Virus record (IMG/VR): IMGVR_UViG_3300023118_000002
Span: 1-60,247 of that record
Origin: a virus
Strand: one strand, 5' to 3'
Length of the DNA: 60,247 bases
The notes below the pieces were generated by a model. The model saw only the letters and a list, made by a program, of their open reading frames with translations. It made no database searches and was not told the origin of the DNA. The position numbers were made by a program, and so were the translations under genes. This document shows, piece by piece, positions 18,652 to 37,343 of the stretch. Position 1 is the stretch's first letter, and the number at the start of each line of letters is the position of its first letter.

Positions 18652-19221
18652 TTAACCCTTCGTATTGAATTTAGCCTTACGTTCTGCGTTCAGATCTCGC
18701 TGCAGCTGTGCAGCTTCCTTCTTAGGCATCATCTTTTTCTTAGGATCGTTCTTGATGTTCACAACTCGAATGAGCGTAAGCAAACGATTAAGATGCCAGT
18801 CCTGAACTTGAAAATCTATTTGCAACGCAACGAGCCAGTAATAGATAATCTCGGCGGTTACTACCTCACCTGAGTTACCTTTAGGCGCGTTGGGATTGTC
18901 ATTAAACCAGGTAGCTGTCATCTTTCGATTGATGTAGGCACCTACCTCGTCGATTACTGGGTCCGGAATGTACGCGTAAACCTCCGGGGGAATTTCCTCG
19001 GAAAGCGTCATGCATCGGATGTAATCTAAAGTCTCTTCTGTGGTTCGCGCTTCCTTACCAAGGAATGGCTTTTCCCACTTTTGCTCCCATTTTGACAGGG
19101 AGACAAGAGAGTGCTCTAACGTGATCTTGGTCTCTTGCGTGTAGATGAAACGATTAGTCTCATCATTGAAGAGTTCCTGTTGTGGGATCGTAATCGTGAG
19201 CACTCTCTTGCCTCCTTTCAT
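18652..19221 (-). CDS. Tail assembly chaperone-like protein (189 aa)
   Basis: The protein contains KITLEHSLVSLSKWEQKWEK, TTEETLDYIRCMT, a segment TAEIIYYWLVALQI and WHLNRLLTLIRVVNI, a set of blocks that I recognise from proteins after the major tail protein in siphoviruses of Firmicutes and actinobacteria; they are usually taken as tail assembly chaperones. I see no slippery site for a frameshifted partner in the last codons. Its basic, Lys/Met-rich tail (PKKKMMPKKEAAQL) is notable. Confidence 0.7.
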   Translation of the reverse strand: MKGGKRVLTITIPQQELFNDETNRFIYTQETKITLEHSLVSLSKWEQKWEKPFLGKEARTTEETLDYIRCMTLSEEIPPEVYAYIPDPVIDEVGAYINRKMTATWFNDNPNAPKGNSGEVVTAEIIYYWLVALQIDFQVQDWHLNRLLTLIRVVNIKNDPKKKMMPKKEAAQLQRDLNAERKAKFNTKG

Positions 19222-20120: not shown

Positions 20121-20441
20121 CTAGAAGTATAGTGAGTAAATATCGTGATAAAGTTCATCTGTTTGAAACTGACGCAGAAATGTGGTCATTTTCAAAGCGG
20201 CAACTTTGTCGGGAATGGGGCTATCAGGATCGTCTGTAATAACAGTGACCTGATAACGATTGGTGTGTGAATATGGAGCGTTGTTGGCGAATATACTCCG
20301 AGTGTCATCCCGTGCATAGATGATGCAAGGGTAAGTAAGTTTCAATTTTGGTTTAGGCTTGAAATATACTTTTAGTTTCTGCTCAGGGAGTTCCCCCATC
20401 AAAGTTTCCAGAACGGTCTGGAGCCGATGCCTTGGGCCCAT
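20121..20441 (-). CDS. Tail terminator-like protein (106 aa)
   Basis: LKLTYPCIIYARDD, RYQVTVITDDPDSPIPDKVAAL and the final YHDIYSLYF form a pattern found in phage proteins between the head closure and the tail tube; these are thought to be tail terminators. The ATG follows AGGAGGTGTGTACA and lies inside the end of the upstream gene (59-nt overlap). Confidence 0.75.
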   Translation of the reverse strand: MGPRHRLQTVLETLMGELPEQKLKVYFKPKPKLKLTYPCIIYARDDTRSIFANNAPYSHTNRYQVTVITDDPDSPIPDKVAALKMTTFLRQFQTDELYHDIYSLYF

Positions 20442-20754
20442 TGTACACACCTCCTAACGTAAGATTGAGTCTTCGATCGACAACCTCAACAGTCGAAACT
20501 GTCCAAAGCGTGCCCATCCAAGTTACGTATCGAATGTTAGCAAAATGCATGTTTGCATAGGCATCCGCAACAATACTTAGTGTGTTCCCGACAGTGATCT
20601 CATTAGTAGCAGTATCACCTGGATTCAAACGACGATTGTTGCGAAGGACGTCACCATAGGCATTACGCTCTACGATGACGTCCTTCCACACACCAGGCGA
20701 AGTTTCTACTTGAGCAGGCTCAGCATAACCGAGCTGTCCGAAGAACTTAGCCAT
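20383..20754 (-). CDS. Head closure/head-tail connector protein (123 aa)
   Basis: The protein has GQLGYAEPAQVETSPGVWKD, VIVERNAYGDVLRNNRRL and a beta-rich middle (ANIRYVTWMGTLWTV). The pattern G-V-W-x-x-V-I-x-E-R-x-x-x-G-D-V-L-R-N is known from head-closure proteins of similar phages. It lies between the capsid protein and the tail terminator. Confidence 0.75.
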   Translation of the reverse strand: MAKFFGQLGYAEPAQVETSPGVWKDVIVERNAYGDVLRNNRRLNPGDTATNEITVGNTLSIVADAYANMHFANIRYVTWMGTLWTVSTVEVVDRRLNLTLGGVYNGPKASAPDRSGNFDGGTP

Positions 20755-20767
20755 GGATTACTTCTTG

Positions 20768-22774
20768 TTACGCGGTACGAGTGAACGTCCAGTCGCGGTC
20801 GCTGTCGTGCTGGATTCCGTAGTTCGGAGCCGGAACGGCCTCGATGTCGAAAGTAGCGTTGACGGCGATAGCAGGCTGTGCACCCGAGTTCAGGACTGCG
20901 CCAGTGTTCGCGTTCTTGTAGATCACGCCAGTAACGGCCGGGATCGTGACAACACCAGTGCCGTTGACGAAGGTCGGAGCCTGAGCAACGACCACGTGGT
21001 CAGCGTTGATGACGAACGTGACAGCCGACTTCGGCTTGGTCAGCGCACCGGAGATGCGAGTCTCCAGCAGGTACTTCTGCTGGTTGTAGTCGATGTCGAA
21101 GAAGTCGAAGAGGTTGATCTCTCCACCAGCGTCAGCACCAACGGTGTAGTCCGCGAGGTTAACCGCGATACCAATGATGTCGGCGTTGTCCTCCATGACC
21201 TCGACGGTCACGATGTCGGCGACGGTCAGGGCAGCTGCGAGCTCTGCCTTGGTTGCGTACAGACGACGACCCAGGGTGTCCTTCACCAGGATGAGCTTCG
21301 TGAAGACAGCACGAGTGGTGTAGAAGGTGGGGGTACCGGTACCCTTGTAGTTGTTCAGACCCACAACAACAGCATCGATCAGGTCGTTCGGCGCGAGGGT
21401 CGAGGACAGCGGAACGGTGGTGTTGTACATGTCGACGTCGTACGCGATCGGGCGGACGGAGTCCTCGTCGATCTTGTCGTCGTCGTCGGACTCGCGGTTG
21501 TCACCAACGAGGATGGCACGCGCGATTTCCTCGTCGAGCATGACGCGCATCTCAGCCTGAATCCAGACCAGGATGTTGACCTCGGTGATGTCGATGATGT
21601 CATCGCGGTCGAGCTTCTGCTTCTTGTAGACCGTGGTCGGCGTGGTGATGCGACGCAGGAGCTTGATGACCTCGTCCTTCTTGAGGTTACCCTTGACGTA
21701 ACCCTTCGCACGAGCCTCATCTGCCGTCAGGTCAGCCGAGAACGACTTGATCCGAGCAAACGGGCTGTGGTGGGTACCATCGAGAACGTTCTGCACCCAC
21801 TCCATACGACGGGAGACATAGGTGATGCCGTTCTGGTCCAGCTTGGCGTCGGGGAACAGCAGGTCGATGTTCTCGATGCCGTAGTCCGCCGCGTGAGCGA
21901 GGAACGACTGCTTGAGCGAACCGAACTTCGGGCCGTCATCGAGGATGGTCTGAAGCTGAGCCGAGGTGAGCTTCGGACGCTGGGCGCCGTGTGCCAGCGT
22001 GTCCCCGTTCTGCTCGAAGGCGTTGCGCATGTTTTTGATTCCTTCCTGAATCGTTTCGTCGACGTGAGCAAGGAACTCTTCGTCATCAAGTACTGCGGAG
22101 TGTGCTACGGTGCTGCTCGAAGTGGCCTCTTCAACGGCGGCGCCGATGACGTACTCCACAACTTCGGTCTGCTTCGGGGTGAGAGTCTTGAGAATGTCTT
22201 CGACAGTCTCGTTCTCATCCGTTACAACAGTGGACTCGTGCTGAAGCTTCTGCTCCTGCTCGTCGTCCGTCTTGGTGGTGATCTTGTCTCCCACAATTTC
22301 TCCTTCGGGACTTTCGTGCTGGAGCTCTTCTCCAGTGAAAATTACTGCTTCGTCTTCGATGACATCATAGGTTCCGTCACCGTGTGCTAGACTGACATTG
22401 TCAATCTTGGCTTCCATGTTTGCGCCCTGCATTACGAGACTTACTTCCGTAATGTCACCATGCTGGACCAAAGAACCAAGCTGCTGAAGGTTCTTAGCAA
22501 AGATAGAGAGGCTCTCAATGTCACCGTTCTGAACGAGCTGCTTGCCCATCTGACCAGACTCGGTGTCATTAAAGAATCCATAAGTGTAGATGCTGCCATC
22601 TCGGTTCTCGAGAATAGCGTGACCAAGAACATTGTCGAGGTTATCATGACGATGCTTCCAAACTAGCGGGACGGTAAATTTGTCCTGGTGCTTGAAAGCG
22701 TCGGGCATGATAGTCCGTCCATCGCTGCACTTGATACCACTCTTAGTTGCCCATCCACTAAAATCTGCTTCCAT
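20768..22774 (-). CDS. Fused prohead protease, scaffold-like region and major capsid protein (668 aa)
   Basis: Residues 1-125 match the HK97-type prohead protease fold: His in WKHRHDN (~41-43) and the nucleophile region ESLSIFAKN (~88-95), then EVSLVMQGANMEAKID. Residues ~126-300 are an acidic, helical delta/scaffold-like region with repeated L-[AQ]-H sites (SLAHG, LQHES twice, TVAHS, FLAHV, TLAHG, FLAHA), which I infer to be processing sites. Residues ~300-600 are the HK97-fold capsid (YGIENIDLLFPDAK, TPTTVYKKQKLDRDD, MLDEEIARAILVGDNR). The last ~70 residues form an Ig-like domain shared with the tail tube. Protease, delta region and capsid protein are usually separate or paired genes; a single fusion requires self-processing in cis. 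Confidence 0.88.
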   Translation of the reverse strand: MEADFSGWATKSGIKCSDGRTIMPDAFKHQDKFTVPLVWKHRHDNLDNVLGHAILENRDGSIYTYGFFNDTESGQMGKQLVQNGDIESLSIFAKNLQQLGSLVQHGDITEVSLVMQGANMEAKIDNVSLAHGDGTYDVIEDEAVIFTGEELQHESPEGEIVGDKITTKTDDEQEQKLQHESTVVTDENETVEDILKTLTPKQTEVVEYVIGAAVEEATSSSTVAHSAVLDDEEFLAHVDETIQEGIKNMRNAFEQNGDTLAHGAQRPKLTSAQLQTILDDGPKFGSLKQSFLAHAADYGIENIDLLFPDAKLDQNGITYVSRRMEWVQNVLDGTHHSPFARIKSFSADLTADEARAKGYVKGNLKKDEVIKLLRRITTPTTVYKKQKLDRDDIIDITEVNILVWIQAEMRVMLDEEIARAILVGDNRESDDDDKIDEDSVRPIAYDVDMYNTTVPLSSTLAPNDLIDAVVVGLNNYKGTGTPTFYTTRAVFTKLILVKDTLGRRLYATKAELAAALTVADIVTVEVMEDNADIIGIAVNLADYTVGADAGGEINLFDFFDIDYNQQKYLLETRISGALTKPKSAVTFVINADHVVVAQAPTFVNGTGVVTIPAVTGVIYKNANTGAVLNSGAQPAIAVNATFDIEAVPAPNYGIQHDSDRDWTFTRTA

Positions 22775-22796: not shown

Positions 22797-23510
22797 CTAG
22801 AGATGGTAATAGTGCTTTAGACTTTTATGCTTCTTGCTAGATTTGCGTTTAGCCTTTGCTTTTCCGCGAGCTTTCTTCTTTGGCGGTGGTTTGACATAGC
22901 CCGCAACCTGATCGTGGATGTTCTGCTTTTCAGTATCCGCAATGTTTTGGTATTTAGCTTGCAAGTCATCCATTGCTTTAGAATAGGCTTCGCGCGCAGA
23001 CTTTACTGCATCCGAGAGTTCGTTTGAAATTCGTGCACGGTCTCTCGCGGCTTGACCAGCGGCGTTGTTATACTTGTCGCCAGATTCTTTAGCAGCTCTA
23101 GCTTTGATCTGACGATTCTGTTGCTCGATAAATGCACGCTGTTTAGGCGTAGCATCGGCAGGTATTGGATTTAGTTTGACAGCTGTATTAGCTGCCACAA
23201 GACCCTTTACAATGTCATCGAGTGTAGAATTGATTTGATCAACTGCAGCTTGGGCTTTCGCAACGAGCGCCTCAAGTTTAGCCTTTTGAGCTTCTTGAGA
23301 TGATGTTAGCTCAGCCTTTTTAGCTTTAGAGATGCTATCCCTAGCAACCGCATAAGTATCTCTTTGCTCCTTAGAAGTAAGAGCCGAACGCGCATTCTTA
23401 TCAGCCAACTGCTTAGTACGCTCGTAATATTCATGAGCTTTTACTGGATCGTAGTAGGGAGATGAATAATGCGCTAAACTTTGCTCGTCATACGTCGGAG
23501 TGTCATCCAT
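22797..23510 (-). CDS. Internal head/structural protein with LAHY motif and basic tail (237 aa)
   Basis: The N-terminus reads DEQSLAHYSSPYYDPVKAHEYYERTKQL; the YDPVKAHEYYE block is known to me from virion proteins of Firmicutes phages. A long charged coiled-coil region follows (~40-200), and the C-terminus is strongly basic (PPPKKKARGKAKAKRKSSKK). It lies between portal and capsid gene, where scaffold or minor head proteins lie. The basic tail suggests DNA contact inside the capsid. It shares the SLAHY site with other proposed capsid cargo. Confidence 0.75.
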   Translation of the reverse strand: MDDTPTYDEQSLAHYSSPYYDPVKAHEYYERTKQLADKNARSALTSKEQRDTYAVARDSISKAKKAELTSSQEAQKAKLEALVAKAQAAVDQINSTLDDIVKGLVAANTAVKLNPIPADATPKQRAFIEQQNRQIKARAAKESGDKYNNAAGQAARDRARISNELSDAVKSAREAYSKAMDDLQAKYQNIADTEKQNIHDQVAGYVKPPPKKKARGKAKAKRKSSKKHKSLKHYYHL

Positions 23511-24913
23511 TACTTACCCGATCCGATTTTCTTAATCTTGGCTTCCAGTTGAACCATTGCGTTCTCAAAGATTGCGTTCTGTTCATCTGAAATATCCGGA
23601 CTGGGGGTTGGTCCTGCAGTAATGGCCTGCTGTTCACCACCTGGACGAATTGGGGTTGATGGAATCTCACCCAAATCTGTAGAGCTGGGTGCAGGAACGC
23701 CTGCCTGAATCGGAAGATTCTTGTTCAGGAGCTTATCCGCATTCGGGTCACTAGAAGGCTTAAAGCCAAGCAATCCGCGGAATTCGTTCGAGGACAGAAT
23801 CTCGTTTCGAGTGAGTTTATCCGCAAGCTCCGCAAGATCCTGGATAGCCAGAAGCTTGAAGGGATCACGGTAGTACTCAATCGACTGACCCTGGGCACGA
23901 GCGGTCTTGGTAAGGAAAGACGATTTCATAGACTCGGTAATTGCACCGAGAATAGGCTCAATTGTACGATTGTAGTAATTAAGCAGCGTCTTTTCATCGG
24001 CAGTACCGTTGAACACCGACTCGGCAAGACCCAGTTGAGAATATAGCATTCCGGTCAAGAACTGCACCTGTGCAAGCATGTTGTTCTCAACAGGACGGTT
24101 CAGCTGAGTAATCTTTTCAGTAGCATCCGTGTAGGCTACTCCGTACTTAGATCCCTTAAGCTGATTCTCAATATCCCGAGCACGCTCTTCAGCCTGATCC
24201 TTACGTGTCTCGTTCTTGACAGCATATGGAAGCTGAATGATCAGGTCGAGCTTACCCGAACTCGCCGCTTCGTCGATTGAGTCAAGAAGACTAAGCTTCC
24301 GAAGCAATCGCTGATACGTTGAGTTGGGCTCGTTCATTACCGAATATAGCGGGTTCTCAACAATAGCCACAACGTCTTTTGGCATTGTAATCTCTTCTTT
24401 GACACCCTTTATGTCATTGTAGACCCGGAGGCGAACATGGCGGGGGTACCAATTGATGATCTCACCTACACGCAATGTGAAAATATCGTATGTACCGGAG
24501 AGAAGCGGAGTATCCGAAGTATCAATCGGAACGATAGCAATGTATCCCTTGTCAAAGAGAGTCATTGCTACATCCTGACGGAAAGCTCGAGCACCCTGGT
24601 CAATATTTGCTTTAAGCGTCAAGCAGTTGTTAAGGCCGCTCTTTGCATCGCGCAGATAGTGCTTGTTCTCATCCAAATATACGTGGTTCATGTTGATTGC
24701 AGCCACGTCGATTCCAACGCGAGTGTAGATGGAAGTAATGATAGAACGATCATTACTAACAGCCATTCGGTTACGACCAGGACTAGCGCCAGAGTTTACA
24801 GACCCACCAAATCCCATTCGGGTTGGACCCTGAACAGGCTGATCCATAAACGCATTCCAAGCGTGTGCCAGTTGTTTAACTCCGTTTGCGGCTCTATCAA
24901 ATAGTGATGCCAC
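23510..24913 (-). CDS. Portal protein (467 aa)
   Basis: The protein has portal landmarks: an N-terminal clip region with RVGIDVAAINMNHVY, a wing/stem region with LLDSIDEAASSGKLDLIIQLPY, and the crown helices LLNYYNRTIEPILGAITESM. C-terminal Pro-rich sequence follows. GTG is the start, 6 nt after GGAGGTGA. Position between terminase and capsid genes agrees. A QLAHAW site occurs at residues 14-19, similar to the LAH sites in the capsid region. Confidence 0.88.
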   Translation of the reverse strand: MASLFDRAANGVKQLAHAWNAFMDQPVQGPTRMGFGGSVNSGASPGRNRMAVSNDRSIITSIYTRVGIDVAAINMNHVYLDENKHYLRDAKSGLNNCLTLKANIDQGARAFRQDVAMTLFDKGYIAIVPIDTSDTPLLSGTYDIFTLRVGEIINWYPRHVRLRVYNDIKGVKEEITMPKDVVAIVENPLYSVMNEPNSTYQRLLRKLSLLDSIDEAASSGKLDLIIQLPYAVKNETRKDQAEERARDIENQLKGSKYGVAYTDATEKITQLNRPVENNMLAQVQFLTGMLYSQLGLAESVFNGTADEKTLLNYYNRTIEPILGAITESMKSSFLTKTARAQGQSIEYYRDPFKLLAIQDLAELADKLTRNEILSSNEFRGLLGFKPSSDPNADKLLNKNLPIQAGVPAPSSTDLGEIPSTPIRPGGEQQAITAGPTPSPDISDEQNAIFENAMVQLEAKIKKIGSGK

Positions 24914-24948: not shown

Positions 24949-25923
24949 TTATTTGACGACATACTTCCCATTCTTAAGGATAAGTTTAATGACCTCGTGA
25001 CCGGTGTCAATTGACTTAACGCCTTTAATGGTGTTGTATCCGCGATTTACAATTTCAGGATGCGCAAGTAAATAACGGCCGCCGTATTTGACAGTTGCGT
25101 AACCAGCAACTAAAATTCCTGCACCGATTAAATCCTTCTTAAGCGAGTATTCTTTCTTTGGGGCCAAACGGTTGTTATAATCTTTCCGAATAGCACTAGC
25201 TTTGGTAAAAGAATTCTGGCGGTTAGCACGATCGATCTTTGCTTGGTTTGCCGATTCAATTTCAGCTTTATGCCGACCCCAGTGCATACCAAGAACACCA
25301 TGATGAGCCAAAGAATCATCTTCAGGATCAAACTGATTCAGAGCTCGCTCGATGTAATTAATAACCTCTGCTGGATCTAATTCATCGTGTTTAATTGAAG
25401 AGACAGGAATGTTAAGTTCCATAGATGTTAATCCACCCCAAATATCATCAGCTGGACTAAGAATCTCAGTTGTCTTAAAACCCATTTTTTCATAAATATG
25501 CAAAGCGTCCGGTGATTCACCGGGAACTTCAAGCGTTAACTTAGAAATGCCTTTGTCGCGCGCATAATCAATAACACCTGAAACTGCAGCCGAAGCATAC
25601 CCATTCCCACGATGAGCTTTCTTAACGCCCAACCAAACAAGATTTAGAGAATCAGGAGTATCTTGATTGAAAGCGGCTTCTCCAACTTTTTCACCCTTGG
25701 CGTTTTTAAGAGTGAAGCTATGATACTGCTTAACTCTTTCCGCATAACCAGGACTTAGTTTAGAAAGAAGCTTGGGTATGCCAGATGTTGCATCTCGAGA
25801 CACCACAAGCGTTCCGCCACCTTTTAGCTTCTTGGTAAAGGTTGGTCGAGGTTCTTCTTTACGATCGCCCCAGTGCATACCAAGAACACCGTAGTGAGCA
25901 AGGGTCTTATTCAAATATGACAT
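24949..25923 (-). CDS. GNAT-type acetyltransferase flanked by HYGVLGMHWG tags (324 aa)
   Basis: Two copies of the tag occur: TLAHYGVLGMHWG at residues ~7-19 and SLAHHGVLGMHWG at ~204-216. Between them is a GNAT acetyltransferase core: LVWLGVKKAHRGNGYASAAV (the acetyl-CoA-binding R/Q-x-x-G-x-G/A motif as RGNGYA) and KLTLEVPGESPDALHIYEKMGF (motif B). After the second tag a basic linker, a short hydrophobic stretch (LIGAGILVAGYATV) and a terminal domain follow. It lies between terminase and portal genes. I infer a virion-carried enzyme that acetylates a host or phage target early in infection. The second tag may allow cleavage into two products. Confidence 0.8.
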   Translation of the reverse strand: MSYLNKTLAHYGVLGMHWGDRKEEPRPTFTKKLKGGGTLVVSRDATSGIPKLLSKLSPGYAERVKQYHSFTLKNAKGEKVGEAAFNQDTPDSLNLVWLGVKKAHRGNGYASAAVSGVIDYARDKGISKLTLEVPGESPDALHIYEKMGFKTTEILSPADDIWGGLTSMELNIPVSSIKHDELDPAEVINYIERALNQFDPEDDSLAHHGVLGMHWGRHKAEIESANQAKIDRANRQNSFTKASAIRKDYNNRLAPKKEYSLKKDLIGAGILVAGYATVKYGGRYLLAHPEIVNRGYNTIKGVKSIDTGHEVIKLILKNGKYVVK

Positions 25924-25931
25924 TCTACTCC

Positions 25932-27707
25932 CTACTCAAAGGCGGCCTTGTTAGCTTTATAAGCTACGTATGCATCCAGGAGGGCTGCCACGTTATCAAT
26001 TTTGGCTTCTTGACGCTTTTTGTAAAGCTTACGGTTACCATTGGTGTCTTCCATGGTTACAGCGTTACCCATAGCGAACATCATAAGTGCCTCATCAAAT
26101 ATAAGCATGCGAGTTTTAGACGTCAAAGTCTCTTCACTCAAATGCTTAAGTTCACCAAGAGGAACAGACTCGGTTCGAGCTCCCTGAATGACTTTCTCTA
26201 TGCCAAAGGGACCATTCATAGCTTCCCATCGCTTTACAAATTCGGCAGCATTGTAAGGGTCATACCCAAACGCACGCACGTCGTACTTGAAAGTTTCAAT
26301 GTGATGCTCGAGGTCATCGTAAACTTCCATCATGTCAAGGTTGATACCCTGCAAAACGTGAAGTGTACCTTCGTTCAAGAACTCTTCATACTTAGCTCGC
26401 ATAGCACCAGGAAGTTTGTCCATAGTGTTTTGCGAGATGTAGCTGCGAGTCTTGATTCCAAAGGAACCGTCGCTCATTGGGAAGAGGAATGTGAAAGCTG
26501 TAAAGTCATCACCTTGCGAAAGGTCCGCACCCATAGCGCACATCATACCGGCGAAACGCTGATCACGATGTGGAACTACAGGAATCGTCTCTTCATAAGT
26601 GAAGAAGTAAGTGAAGCCTTCCATTGGAATGCCAAAACGCTTGGCTAGGATGTCATTACGAACCGAAGGGTTAATCACGGCACGCTCAACATCCTGCGCA
26701 TACACTTCATAAGGTACTGTAATACCTAGGTTAGGATTAGCCTTAAGCCACATGCTTTCATCCGCTACTTCTTCGATAGAATCGAGTTTGTAGTGGAAGA
26801 TTGAAATGTGAGGAGCAGCTGGACCTTCGCCGCGAAGTATAGTAGCAAGTTCCATTTTGATTGTATCGCCAGCACCGTTTCGTACGGTACCTTCAGAGCT
26901 GATAGCGACAATCAGATAGTCATCCAGCTTTGACGCACCCTGCTCAATTGCGCCGATTACGTCTTCACGGACGTCGCCGGAAAGCCATTCGTCAACGGTA
27001 GAGATCTTAGGGCGTAGACCTTGCAGCTTGTTGATCGACATCGGTCGAATTTCAAGAAGTGAGTCGGTTACGAAGTTCTGGATTCCCTTTTTAGTGGAGG
27101 CCAAGTGCTGACGAGCGGCGCGGTTGCCTGTCGTGTTCTGCAATGACCCGAGAGTCAAGAACTTAAACAGTGGACCTTGTGCTCGAGTGATTGCCGTTCT
27201 AAACGGAGACATCACTTCTTCGGCTTGTTTCATCGTAGGCGCAGTTGTGATCTGATGAGTTGTTGAAGTATCGATGTTAAGGAAGTAAGCTTGAATGAAG
27301 TAAGCATACATCGACTTAGCAGCGCCTCGAGCAACAATCAGATACTGCTTAACGGTCAAACGCTTCTTGATCAGTTTTGTTTCGTGATGTCCGCCGTGAT
27401 TGTCCTTTGATGGAACGTACACGGTTCTTTCAACGAAGTAAAACCAAGCAAGAAGCTGTTCTGCCCAAAGCTTAAACGATTCAAGCATGTGAAGCTTGTT
27501 ACCGTCAGTAAGCGTAAGTTCGGTTTCACAATACGAAATAAAACCATCAATGGCTCTGTCATCGTAATAATAGAAAGGGTTGGCGATGAGCTCTTCAATG
27601 CGGTTCATCTCCATAGCAATTTCCTTGTTTACAGGAATATCGCCGCGGAGGACTGCATCGCGGAAAGCTGCAAAATACTTTGGTGTAGCTGTGTTTGATA
27701 GGGCCAT
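25932..27707 (-). CDS. terL: Terminase large subunit (591 aa)
   Basis: The ATPase domain has a modified Walker A (VARGAAKSMYAY), followed by IYSTVDEWLSGD-like DExD region (ISTVDEWLSG) and VAISSEGTVRNG motif III. The C-terminal RNase H-like nuclease has MGADLSQGDDFTAF and YDPYNAAEFVKRW. It packages DNA into the prohead. The ATG follows GGAGGTTGGCG. Downstream GNAT and portal genes are 9-26 bp apart. Confidence 0.92.
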   Translation of the reverse strand: MALSNTATPKYFAAFRDAVLRGDIPVNKEIAMEMNRIEELIANPFYYYDDRAIDGFISYCETELTLTDGNKLHMLESFKLWAEQLLAWFYFVERTVYVPSKDNHGGHHETKLIKKRLTVKQYLIVARGAAKSMYAYFIQAYFLNIDTSTTHQITTAPTMKQAEEVMSPFRTAITRAQGPLFKFLTLGSLQNTTGNRAARQHLASTKKGIQNFVTDSLLEIRPMSINKLQGLRPKISTVDEWLSGDVREDVIGAIEQGASKLDDYLIVAISSEGTVRNGAGDTIKMELATILRGEGPAAPHISIFHYKLDSIEEVADESMWLKANPNLGITVPYEVYAQDVERAVINPSVRNDILAKRFGIPMEGFTYFFTYEETIPVVPHRDQRFAGMMCAMGADLSQGDDFTAFTFLFPMSDGSFGIKTRSYISQNTMDKLPGAMRAKYEEFLNEGTLHVLQGINLDMMEVYDDLEHHIETFKYDVRAFGYDPYNAAEFVKRWEAMNGPFGIEKVIQGARTESVPLGELKHLSEETLTSKTRMLIFDEALMMFAMGNAVTMEDTNGNRKLYKKRQEAKIDNVAALLDAYVAYKANKAAFE

Positions 27708-27721
27708 CGCCAACCTCCTTT

Positions 27722-28141
27722 CTAAAGGTTCTTCATGATTACCATTGCCGCTTTCACACCATACTTGTTGAGGATGGTGGCGCCCCTAGCTACGGCTTTT
27801 TGGCCGACAGGGGTCCGCAAAAGAGCTGCGGCCGCCGTAACAGTAGTTCCAACACCGATAAGAACTTTAACCGCATCATTGCCTTTTTTGATTTTGGCAA
27901 TAGCGGTCTTGTCAGTCTTCAGCTTGGAATATTGCTGTTCAAGCTGCAAACGCTCATTAAGTTTTCTAAGATCTGCGTTCGAAAGGTTGCGAGAGCCCTG
28001 TCGATTGAGCTCACGTGCCTGTGCGTGATCCGGGTGCGGGGGAGCTTTAATTTTTTTGCTTCGTGAGATATCATCCTTACGACGACCCCAGTGCATTCCT
28101 AGAACACCGTAGTGCGAAAGAGTCTTTCCAAATGTCGGCAT
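27722..28141 (-). CDS. Small tagged virion protein (HYGVLGMHWG, 139 aa)
   Basis: The protein begins MPTFGKTLSHYGVLGMHWGR, continues with a basic region and NLSNADLRKLNERLQLEQQY, a block that I recognise from tagged phage proteins of Firmicutes, and ends with a hydrophobic helix (VLIGVGTTVTAAAALL) and a basic tail. It therefore has a tag, a helical linker and a membrane-active segment, which suits a virion-delivered or internal protein. It lies directly upstream of terL. Confidence 0.75.
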   Translation of the reverse strand: MPTFGKTLSHYGVLGMHWGRRKDDISRSKKIKAPPHPDHAQARELNRQGSRNLSNADLRKLNERLQLEQQYSKLKTDKTAIAKIKKGNDAVKVLIGVGTTVTAAAALLRTPVGQKAVARGATILNKYGVKAAMVIMKNL

Positions 28142-34030: not shown

Positions 34031-36766
34031 CTACTTGTCAAGTGCTGAGTACAGTGTACTGGTAGAGATACCTAGTCTAGATGCAATCTCCGCAACTGTA
34101 TAGTTGCCTGATGCTAACATGGACTGGGCTAATGCAAGGCTAGCATTGTTAACCTTGGGCCTATCTCTTGGTGTGGCGAGGGATCTAAGATCTTCAACAT
34201 CTGTATTGTCAATGATCTGCTTAAGCTTACTGGCGGTAATGGCACCGGATTGAATGGCGTTCCATTCTTCATCAGTAATCTTAATCTTAATCTTACCAGC
34301 ACCAACCCTAGTACGTGCCTCAGTAAGGGCCATACCATTGACCTTCTTGAGGTCTGCCTTATCAATACCGGGGTTCGCTTCAACCTTAGCCCTTACAATA
34401 GACTGGGCCAACAACTGGGCTTGTCTTTCGAGGGGGGCATTCTTTAGAGCAATGTTTAGCTTAGCATTTAGAGACTTAACCTCATTACTGTAAACACTCT
34501 TAGCAGACTGGCTGTATGGAATGTTCTTAATAGTGAGGGACTCTTTTCTAGCTTCATTAGCAAGAGCCTTTAGACTATTAGCATGATCAGCATAGATGCG
34601 TTCAATTAGGGTACCACCATTACCAGACACAAGGGTATGTGCGTCATTGGTATAGGCGCCTTTCTTAACCTTCTCACGAGAGATGGTAACTTCACCCTTT
34701 TTGTTTGTATAGGTTTCATCAGCAATTACATAATGCTTGTTACCCTTAGCATCAGTCTCCCAATGAGAACCCTTTGGTACGTACATCTTCTCACCAGTAG
34801 CTGCATCAATAGGACCACCAAGGTGCACAGGCCGAGGCTTGCGAGCATCAATGTTTTTATCAGATGTAGTTCTAGAGATCAGTGTAGAGGCACCTTTTTT
34901 AGCACCATTCTGATACTTGCGCTTTAGCTCGTTAATGTTGTTGTCAAGAGCAGAAGCCTTGTAATCTAAGTTGTGTTTCTCAGCATCGATAACAACCATC
35001 GAATGACGAACAGCTCGAGCAATCTCACTTTCATGAGCACCCTTAATAGTCATGTCCGTAATTAGATTAGAAACATCACCCATAAGCTGTTGCTTAAGAC
35101 CGCCTGGATTCTTAGCTCCAGCAAGACCCTTAGTAGAATCTTTCGGAAGCTTGTACAACTCTTTAGGATCAAAGTTCTTAAGTCCACTAAGAGCGGCGGA
35201 AGTCTTAACTTTTCCGTCGTTATTAGGAATTACAAGAACTGTATCACCATCAAAGTCTGCACCTGACAGACGTTCTGCTACCTTGGCATTGATTCCAACT
35301 GCGTCCCTAGCATTCAAAGTAATTGAACGGCGAGCTTCCTTATTACTGTTGTTTACAGTAAGTTGTGGAATCTCAAAGATGCCACCATGAGGGTGACGAA
35401 CTAGAGTGACCACATCTCCATCGTGATACTTAGGAGCAAAGATTTCCGTTTCACTAAGACTGTTAATTGGAAGGATTACATGGTTTGCAGTTCTCGGAAG
35501 ACCAGTTGCTTGAAGTTTCACAGCTGAAGAATCAGCCTCGTCTGCATAAGTCTCGAGCAGCTTGCGCTTAACTCCAGGGTTTGTCAGAGCAAGGATGTCT
35601 TCTAGATCCGCACGCTTTGAGTTCTGCGTAAGATCCAACTGAGCTTTAGCAAGGGCCGGCGTCTGCTTCGAAAGGAACTGTGACGAGAAGTTATTAGACC
35701 AGGTGTACCAATCACCTTCCTCATTCACAATGTTCAGAGGCGAACGCTCAACCTTACCTGTCTTAGGATCTGTGTAACCCTTAGGCCGAGTAATAGAACC
35801 AAACGGATTCGATTCGTCTCCAGTCTGAGGCTTCAAAGCGTCTAGCTTGTTACCGGTATCTTTTTTGTTGGTATTGAACAGAATGTCAACGCCCTTAGGC
35901 AGATCATCCTTGTACATTGCCATACCCTTGATGTAGTGCGTACCATCAACAGGGACACGAACCTGAGCATAGTTTGCATTGCCCAAAGAAATGTCAGCGA
36001 CACCCGGACGAAGGTACATCACACCATCAGAAGCAGCACCACCGTCAGGACCATACTTAACCTCAACACGCTTCGAACTGATGTTAACAAGAGGGCCCAA
36101 ATCGGCGGCTTTCTTATTAGTATCAGGATCGATGTATTCAGCGATGCTATGGATTTTATCCTTGTTGTGATAAACCTCTTTAGCAGTTGTAGATTCGTGT
36201 ACTAAGACCTTCAAAGAAGTCTTCTTACCGGTACCTACCTGAGTTACGTCGGTGTAACGAATAACGTAACCCTGGTCCTTAAGCATAGCAATGCCCGTCT
36301 TAAGAGTCGTGTCACTGATTCCCATGTGGTTCTCAGTACCCTTACCGACATCGACATACTTGTACTTGTCAACGTTGTCTTTAAGGATGTTAGCAACAAC
36401 CTGGTTACGATTAGCACGCTCCTGAACAATGGGGTCCATAAGAGCCCGAACAGAAGATTCGTTCATACCCAACTGCTTACCGATTGCGCTGTTGCTCATA
36501 CCCTTATCTTTAAGAGCCATGATACGACGAGTTTTCTCGGCACGAACATCGTTAGAAGAGATAGAGCGGCGAGCACGGAGATCAGCTGTAGAACTAAAAC
36601 CCAGTCCCTCAGCAATCTTAACCTCACTCAAACCCTTCTTCTTAAGATCTTCATAGGCTGCTAGAAAGCTGACGCCACTTTGGTAAGGGTCTTCACCTGA
36701 ACCCCAAGGATAGCGTCCTGAGTGATGCGGAGTACCATAGTGAGCGAGCGTTGATTCGTCATTCAC
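34031..36766 (-). CDS. Putative virion RNA polymerase (DFDGD, two-barrel/YonO-like type, 911 aa)
   Basis: The motif RLSGADFDGDTVLVIP (about residue 515) is the metal-binding DxDGD loop of double-psi beta-barrel RNA polymerases. The N-terminus, from GTG after AAGGAGACCTTCG, reads MNDESTLAHYGTPHHSGRYP, with the LAHYG site found in other proposed capsid cargo. Two helix-turn-helix-like repeats follow (KGLSEVKIAEGLGFSS; KGMSNSAIGKQLGMNESS), and a third ends the protein (YTVAEIASRLGISTSTLYSAL). The family is found, to my knowledge, in many phages of gut Firmicutes. I infer that the enzyme is packaged and transcribes early genes at infection. Catalytic activity is predicted, not shown. Confidence 0.8.
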   Translation of the reverse strand: MNDESTLAHYGTPHHSGRYPWGSGEDPYQSGVSFLAAYEDLKKKGLSEVKIAEGLGFSSTADLRARRSISSNDVRAEKTRRIMALKDKGMSNSAIGKQLGMNESSVRALMDPIVQERANRNQVVANILKDNVDKYKYVDVGKGTENHMGISDTTLKTGIAMLKDQGYVIRYTDVTQVGTGKKTSLKVLVHESTTAKEVYHNKDKIHSIAEYIDPDTNKKAADLGPLVNISSKRVEVKYGPDGGAASDGVMYLRPGVADISLGNANYAQVRVPVDGTHYIKGMAMYKDDLPKGVDILFNTNKKDTGNKLDALKPQTGDESNPFGSITRPKGYTDPKTGKVERSPLNIVNEEGDWYTWSNNFSSQFLSKQTPALAKAQLDLTQNSKRADLEDILALTNPGVKRKLLETYADEADSSAVKLQATGLPRTANHVILPINSLSETEIFAPKYHDGDVVTLVRHPHGGIFEIPQLTVNNSNKEARRSITLNARDAVGINAKVAERLSGADFDGDTVLVIPNNDGKVKTSAALSGLKNFDPKELYKLPKDSTKGLAGAKNPGGLKQQLMGDVSNLITDMTIKGAHESEIARAVRHSMVVIDAEKHNLDYKASALDNNINELKRKYQNGAKKGASTLISRTTSDKNIDARKPRPVHLGGPIDAATGEKMYVPKGSHWETDAKGNKHYVIADETYTNKKGEVTISREKVKKGAYTNDAHTLVSGNGGTLIERIYADHANSLKALANEARKESLTIKNIPYSQSAKSVYSNEVKSLNAKLNIALKNAPLERQAQLLAQSIVRAKVEANPGIDKADLKKVNGMALTEARTRVGAGKIKIKITDEEWNAIQSGAITASKLKQIIDNTDVEDLRSLATPRDRPKVNNASLALAQSMLASGNYTVAEIASRLGISTSTLYSALDK

Positions 36767-37343
36767 CGAAGGTCTCCTTATCGATCTCAGTAATGCGGCG
36801 GTCAAAGGTTTTGATTGAATCGATGATGTGCATCAAGTCATCCAGATCCGGAACATAGATCTCAACTGCATCGCCCTTGTAGATACGAAGTTCGATGTCG
36901 ATGTCGGCCGGGTTGTGACCATACTCGAGACAAAAGATGCAGGCATAGATTTCAAGCTGGCGCATGTAAGTACGAGTAGTACCAGTCTTGAGATCATGAA
37001 TGCGAAGCATCCAACGTTCAGTCTTGGGATCGTAACGGAATGAAATGGTGTCAGCTGTACCGAAACAATTTGGAGAGTAGTACAAAGGCTGCTCTGGCTG
37101 CATTTTGAAACCGATACCGTCATTGACGTAAAGGTTCATAGTCTTACGAACGTCAGGCATTTTAACCCGAAGCGCGATCAGTTCTGCAGCGAGAGCGTGC
37201 TTACGATCTCCGAGCCTAGCTGCCTGAGCAGTGTAGACTCTTTTGTCCATAGCTTCTTCATCATAGTTAGTCCAGCTCGGGTTGCTGGGTGCCATGAGGT
37301 TAGCGTGCTTACCTGCCAACTCGTAGTGCGGATTGAAGCGCAT
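36759..37343 (-). CDS. PD-(D/E)XK nuclease, Cas4/RecB-like (194 aa)
   Basis: CFGTADTISFRYDPKTERWMLRIHDLKTG and QLEIYACIFCLEYG form the core of a RecB/Cas4-type exonuclease (G-x-x-D, then I-x-D-x-K, then Q-x-x-x-Y). No Fe-S cysteine set is visible. It probably works with the VRR-NUC nuclease upstream in DNA processing or recombination. The ATG lies after GGAGGTTCTTG. It overlaps the polymerase start by 8 nt. Confidence 0.8.
   Translation of the reverse strand: MRFNPHYELAGKHANLMAPSNPSWTNYDEEAMDKRVYTAQAARLGDRKHALAAELIALRVKMPDVRKTMNLYVNDGIGFKMQPEQPLYYSPNCFGTADTISFRYDPKTERWMLRIHDLKTGTTRTYMRQLEIYACIFCLEYGHNPADIDIELRIYKGDAVEIYVPDLDDLMHIIDSIKTFDRRITEIDKETFGE

Follow-up and report, generated by a model that had tools for sequence, protein, structure and literature searches.

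The window studied here, the 60,247 bases of the virus record IMGVR_UViG_3300023118_000002, raises the question of why an acetyltransferase is encoded among the head genes and what the short sequence tags on either side of it are for. The protein concerned is the 324-residue product of the open reading frame (ORF) 24949-25923 on the minus strand, a GNAT carrying two copies of a tag that corresponds to the Pfam family DUF7211, a domain of unknown function. The ORF, which starts with ATG and has GGGAG a few bases upstream, was confirmed as a real gene; the TerL gene (25932-27713) ends right before it, and it is followed by the portal gene, by the gene of a 237-residue protein and by that of a prohead protease fused to the major capsid protein, in this order. 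The answer that we regard as reasonably probable is that the tag serves as an address for packaging into the head and that the L-x-H with which it opens corresponds to the motif recognised by the prohead protease.

The tag and this capsid type go together. Where 4.2 kb or more of upstream sequence is available, every capsid locus (40/40) has a tagged ORF; with less, 6 of 40 do. Among 42 loci found by the DNA pattern of the tag alone, 25 contain the capsid fusion and seven more lie in records that contain it, while the records of the other ten are at most 9,561 bases long. Tags are also found in 8/8 loci of bacterial genomes (clostridial or related). In six of these the capsid fusion, or else its protease part, is present; the two without are contigs of less than 4.3 kb. 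The original prediction had guessed the tags to be of a capsid type, and their coupling to a protease-fused head protein is in line with this. One two-tagged protein, gp07 of the Lactococcus phage 1706, is labelled 'structural protein', which is annotation only and probably derives from a published virion analysis.

The L-x-H that opens the tag recurs at the junction between the protease and the capsid domain of the fusion. Capsid relatives were taken as the best 80 of 376, a further capsid alignment comprised 58 of 62 listed relatives, and 92 of 114 fusions were left after removal of those with at least 90% identity. In all 92, L-x-H lies within 40 residues ahead of the capsid domain, compared with a mean of 16.9 and a maximum of 30 in 1000 shuffles of the same 40 residues; the next commonest spaced residue pair at the junction is present in 74. 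The motif has a density of 47 per 1000 residues in the junction, whereas the capsid body holds 11 copies in 33,676 residues, a density of 0.33. Observed over expected, as calculated from all 114 fusions (112 of which hold L-x-H in a narrower junction), is 8.9 for the delta segment and 8.5 for the junction, versus 0.62 for the capsid body, 1.09 for TerL and 0.28 and 0.30 for two major tail proteins. The position of the site drifts (L at -10, -14 or -22 before LFP; FLAH-ADEYGI, YALAH-GI and longer insertions) yet the site is kept, and by moving without being lost it behaves as a protease site rather than as a residue of the fold. In 13 named phages, picked from capsid, GNAT or DNA matches, the junction could be read in 12, each with [LI]xH, and the capsid bodies together contain a single L-x-H. 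Judged from these alignments, L-x-H is probably the recognition site of the prohead protease, and it is very likely cut in the capsid fusion. The fusion itself scores 22.5 against a Pfam gathering score of 21 for Peptidase S78 and 21.2 against the cut-off of 59 for NCBIfam TIGR01543; a sequence search for a solved structure of it returned nothing related (best E 0.16).

Within the window, a degenerate DNA pattern for the tag occurs at three sites, two in the GNAT ORF and one in ORF 27722-28141, and in 100 shuffles of the window it did not occur (mean 0.00, largest 0). Pfam assigns two stretches of the GNAT protein to DUF7211 (PF23847, E 1.8e-18, 66.1 bits with a gathering score of 27) and residues 68-149 to Acetyltransf_1 (E 5.4e-12). 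The two flanking tags noticed earlier are thus both there, though the second reads HHG and not HYG. In the AlphaFold model both tags lie in or beside segments with a predicted local distance difference test (pLDDT) score below 50 (residues 1-12 and 202-221). Overall, 251 tagged ORFs were found in 115 of the 149 loci examined. ReqiPepy6 has eight tagged ORFs and the Arthrobacter phage Paella nine, and at least two tags are present in 27 of 223 non-redundant tagged proteins. As the DNA pattern requires L-A-H-Y, statistics over all 252 tags are biased and were repeated without loci L022-L063, which leaves 153 tags and 137 of the 223 proteins. Two positions ahead of H, 133 of these 153 tags have L and the others I, F, V or M; H, G, G and W do not vary, being fixed by the way the search was defined. 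In the set free of DNA-pattern selection the median start of the first tag is residue 14, and 95 of 136 first tags begin within the initial 30 residues.

Cutting the multi-tag proteins after each L-x-H yields 56 tag-headed modules of at least 50 residues. Of these, 49 align with a standalone single-tag protein over 40 residues or more, and in 24 cases the match spans at least 85% of each partner; none of the 11 untagged N-terminal modules matches a standalone tagged protein. The tags delimit modules. In the window protein, module 1 matches gp9 of phage Argan over 172 of its 172 residues and module 2 is related to ORF 27722-28141. The original prediction held that the second tag might split the GNAT from a membrane-active part with a hydrophobic segment. 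Two modules are indeed separated and the segment exists at residues 260-278, but it is mild: its best 19-residue hydropathy reaches only 0.99, the usual threshold for a membrane helix being 1.6, and the second module is modelled mostly as helix with low confidence. The standalone relative, ORF 27722-28141, reaches 1.84, and 45 of 250 tagged modules attain at least 1.6. Some tagged proteins may have a membrane role, but for the second module of the GNAT protein such a role is unsupported.

Other enzymes bear the same tag. A Pfam census of 120 of the 138 GNAT-free tagged proteins of at least 150 residues (the 18 shortest being omitted) gave the 2H phosphoesterase families PF13563 in ten and PF02834 in five, a papain-fold glutamine deamidase in two, and DUF6321 and an MT0933-like antitoxin in one each, most of the 120 having no other Pfam domain. 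Both H-x-T motifs of the 2H enzymes are present in 12 of the 223 tagged proteins. The GNAT thus appears to be one item in a polyprotein-like set of cargo addressed by the tag, to which 2H phosphoesterases and a papain-fold deamidase domain also belong. In two ORFs (L004:4675-6273 and L009:2511-4157) a 2H phosphoesterase module with both HLT motifs, a tagged GNAT and a further tagged module follow each other in one protein. This 2H module is possibly a packaged counter to cyclic-nucleotide defence; as the L009 part gave only weak matches to solved structures (best E 0.24), we claim no relationship in sequence with Acb1-type anti-defence enzymes.

By both model and alignment, the GNAT of the window protein is intact. 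Its AlphaFold core (residues 28-171) has pLDDT values mostly above 90 and adopts the GNAT fold, superposing on 1y9k with a VIA-align Z of 15.1 over 126 residues at 3.1 Å; IAA acetyltransferase, RimI and SpeG are tied at Z of about 15 (SpeG 14.8, RimI 15.0). The acetyl-CoA loop of GNATs has the consensus R/Q-x-x-G-x-G/A. Among 21 tagged GNAT sequences G106 and G108 are invariant and R105, Y109 and A110 nearly so, and both the RGxGYA loop and SPDARHIYEKMGF are strongly kept; the conserved Tyr of HIYEKMGF is presumably the general acid. The core motifs RGNGYASAAV and DALHIYEKMGF, on which the GNAT assignment of the original prediction rested, are accordingly sound, and neither model nor alignment displays the loss of the acetyl-CoA-binding site that had been named beforehand as refuting the predicted injected effector. 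The best NCBIfam match, the RimI equivalog TIGR01575, remains below its cut-off (38.3 vs 86.4 bits), as do all other equivalogs. Relatives were found by tblastn (E up to 0.01, the last ones weak) in 44 of 50,697 phage records. Most of these records are from phages of Arthrobacter, Gordonia and Streptomyces, the relatives often being labelled acetyltransferase, and 19 IMG/VR loci encode relatives as well. The GNAT is carried by 21 of the 223 non-redundant tagged proteins and directly follows a tag in 21/21, the set having been selected for tag presence and the place after the first tag having been read from the alignment in two (L003 and L011). Some of these proteins are standalone (180-192 residues), some continue with a later tagged module and some have an untagged module in front.

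Two further head proteins, the portal and the 237-residue protein, contain L-x-H without the remainder of the tag; in the motif counts for these two and for the polymerase-like protein below, I and M were allowed for L. The pattern in the portals suggests that the N-terminus is trimmed in many relatives, not all. The 237-residue protein, which ends in LKHYYHL, is possibly a scaffold or a processed head protein. A sister tag, LAHYGTPHHSGRYPWG, stands at the N-terminus of a 924-residue polymerase-like protein (34031-36805, minus strand; phrog_4291, motif ADFDGD), and LxHYG[IT]..SGRYP opens this protein in 7/7 rows read. It is a candidate virion RNA polymerase, for which a sequence search of solved structures gave weak helix-turn-helix-type matches only.

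According to the explanation proposed above, tagged proteins would be drawn into the prohead, where during maturation the protease would separate protease, delta segment and capsid at L-x-H, and tagged cargo would probably be trimmed or split at L-x-H too. Cleavage of the window protein would release the GNAT as a piece of about 197 residues (11-207), leaving a helical remainder of about 117 (208-324). Ejected together with the DNA, the GNAT would then acetylate some target in the host, most likely a protein. We consider it likely that the tag directs packaging; injection of the GNAT, with an action on the host, is rather plausible, while for a cut within the tags at L-x-H the chances appear even.

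Several observations weigh against this explanation. In 133 of 153 tags the H is followed by Y, H or F, whereas 154 of 161 junction sites have G, A, D or S at this place, and a cut after H would leave the conserved part of the tag on the cargo, unlike the T4 propeptide; tag cleavage is the weak and uncertain step of the mechanism. L-x-H is present in most protease domains as well (109 of 114 proteins, mostly LGH), LAH292 is modelled inside a short helix, and only 77 of 116 portals keep the motif. Two tail-region families (window 20121-20450 and 18652-19221, minus strand) contain it at 4.35 and 3.24 times the expected frequency, possibly as a fixed structural residue. The fusion proteins are related, so that 92 out of 92 partly reflects shared descent, and the motif was picked after being seen. 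The label of 1706 gp07, finally, is an annotation only.

Because the residue after H differs so sharply between tags and capsid sites, the tags may be docked and not cut. The tag would then bind the L-x-H groove of the protease or the delta scaffold and stay intact, with the GNAT still joined to the helical module, and the conserved stretch of the tag, mostly downstream of L-x-H, is consistent with such docking. The tag-to-tag modules, however, act as independent units, as expected if they are separated, and we hold this main rival to be doubtful. The location of tagged genes among those of TerL, portal and capsid would also suit a head-assembly interaction motif, with the GNAT acting on phage proteins in the producing cell or prohead instead of in the next host; this is unlikely, as the variety of enzymes (GNAT, 2H phosphoesterase, papain-fold deamidase domain) fits host-directed cargo better. 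Acetylation of a small molecule, e.g. a polyamine, in place of a protein is likewise improbable: the first 13 Foldseek rows are all SpeG spermidine acetyltransferases and SpeG ties with RimI in VIA-align, but RimI is the best NCBIfam match, albeit below cut-off, and the substrate is not readable from the fold alone. Phage acetyltransferases are common (e.g. phrog_1249 and phrog_3810), and the GNAT might be an ordinary late accessory gene whose tags are incidental remnants of gene shuffling; its strict position behind a tag, in a set chosen for the tag, and the strong conservation of the tag over 153 copies make this very improbable.

Returning to the tag as a packaging address, a broader reading may be put forward tentatively. 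DUF7211 would be a general virion-packaging address of a large group of siphophages of Actinomycetota and Firmicutes, and L-x-H a histidine-specific prohead-protease site common to capsid and cargo. Effector polyproteins would be cut apart in the head and injected together, namely the acetyltransferase, the 2H phosphoesterase possibly countering cyclic-nucleotide defence, the papain-fold deamidase and, via the sister tag, the RNA polymerase.

The closest known system is found in phage T4, whose injected proteins IPI-III and gpAlt bear a short N-terminal address, the capsid targeting sequence (CTS); the prohead protease, which acts on the capsid protein as well, cuts this address off (PMC9958956, PMC5694885). 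The DUF7211 tag as proposed resembles the CTS in being a short address on putative injected cargo that shares its protease with the capsid. It differs in being unrelated in sequence, in having a putative His instead of Glu at P1, in placing its conserved part downstream of the motif and in occurring internally, at the head of modules. The DUF7211 tag would work in a way similar to the T4 system, but it opens with L-x-H, whereas the T4 cleavage motif ends in Glu, and it is accordingly not counted as a CTS. Cleavage follows Glu in T4 as in SPN3US, and in SPN3US/phiKZ A-x-E and similar motifs are common to several head proteins and the protease itself, a virion RNA polymerase being present too (PMC5694885). 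The sharing of one motif across head proteins and protease is a likeness to the DUF7211 phages, whereas SPN3US/phiKZ are giant myoviruses with often long propeptides and cleavage after Glu. In P1 DarB, 30 N-terminal residues send a reporter to the capsid, but this is a single antirestriction protein and the available excerpt describes no multi-gene tag (PMC9024508). RimI-like GNATs of polyvalent phage proteins have been proposed as capsid-delivered effectors, with no DUF7211 tag or protease motif in the portion of that source at hand (PMC5512222). The acetyltransferases Argan gp9, OhMyWard gp18 and Bilo gp6 (Arthrobacter, Gordonia and Streptomyces phages, respectively) are tagged homologues with 35-47% identity; Argan gp9 has one tag, and the second module of OhMyWard gp18 differs from that of the window protein.

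Phage acetyltransferase annotations and the earlier proposal of injected GNATs are already known. As far as literature searches could show, the association of DUF7211 with a candidate L-x-H prohead-protease site is new, and so is the view that multi-tag proteins are polyproteins destined for packaging. These returned nothing for HYGVLGMKWG or DUF7211, one unrelated paper for GMKWG, and nothing usable on virion proteomics of Arthrobacter phages, 1706 or ReqiPepy6. To our knowledge few injected effectors are known in Gram-positive hosts. If the explanation is true, DUF7211 becomes a readable address label whose bearer genes are candidate injected cargo. This would shorten the way to anti-defence and takeover proteins that act early in these hosts and might provide a means of loading chosen proteins into such virions. 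Exact cleavage sites would also be predicted in the head proteins of a capsid family for which sequence search finds no solved structure.

Table 1. Features of the window, with the basis of each assignment.
Feature	Coordinates	Strand	Basis
Two-tag GNAT protein, 324 residues	24949..25923	-	ORF, Pfam, alignment
Tag 1, LAHYGVLGMHWG, residues 8-19	25867..25902	-	DUF7211; DNA pattern and Pfam
GNAT domain, residues 28-175	25399..25842	-	model, core pLDDT mostly >90
Acetyl-CoA loop RGNGYA, residues 105-110	25594..25611	-	nearly invariant in alignment
HIYEKMGF with conserved Tyr, residues 142-149	25477..25500	-	alignment
Tag 2, LAHHGVLGMHWG, residues 205-216	25276..25311	-	DUF7211; disordered in model
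Second module, helical, residues 208-324, related to ORF 27722-28141	24952..25302	-	comparison and model
Mildly hydrophobic segment, residues 260-278, 19-residue hydropathy (KD19) 0.99	25090..25146	-	hydropathy
Standalone tagged protein, 139 residues; its tag at 28085-28120	27722..28141	-	DNA pattern and Pfam
Fused prohead protease (S78) and major capsid protein, 668 residues	20768..22774	-	Pfam, profile match, model
LAH, residues 292-294, right before capsid domain; candidate cleavage site	21893..21901	-	alignment of relatives
LAH, residues 260-262, disordered linker	21989..21997	-	sequence and model
LAH, residues 129-131, end of protease domain	22382..22390	-	sequence and model
LAH near N-terminus of 237-residue protein (22797-23510) between portal and capsid	23469..23477	-	motif in 8/8 rows
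LAH near portal N-terminus (LAHAWNAF; portal 23510-24913)	24863..24871	-	motif in 77/116 rows
Second tag kind, LAHYGTPHHSGRYPWG, on 924-residue polymerase-like protein	36701..36748	-	alignment

Two other tagged proteins illustrate how modules are combined. An ORF of 1247 residues (L043:9415-13155, minus strand) contains four tags and ends in a papain-fold glutamine deamidase domain. In OhMyWard gp18 (L145:11980-13542) the second module is 77% identical to the standalone ReqiPepy6 gp017, although the hosts belong to different genera; the pair is a case of gene fusion or split. As regards the interpretation of the original prediction as a whole, it is partly supported by the results described here.
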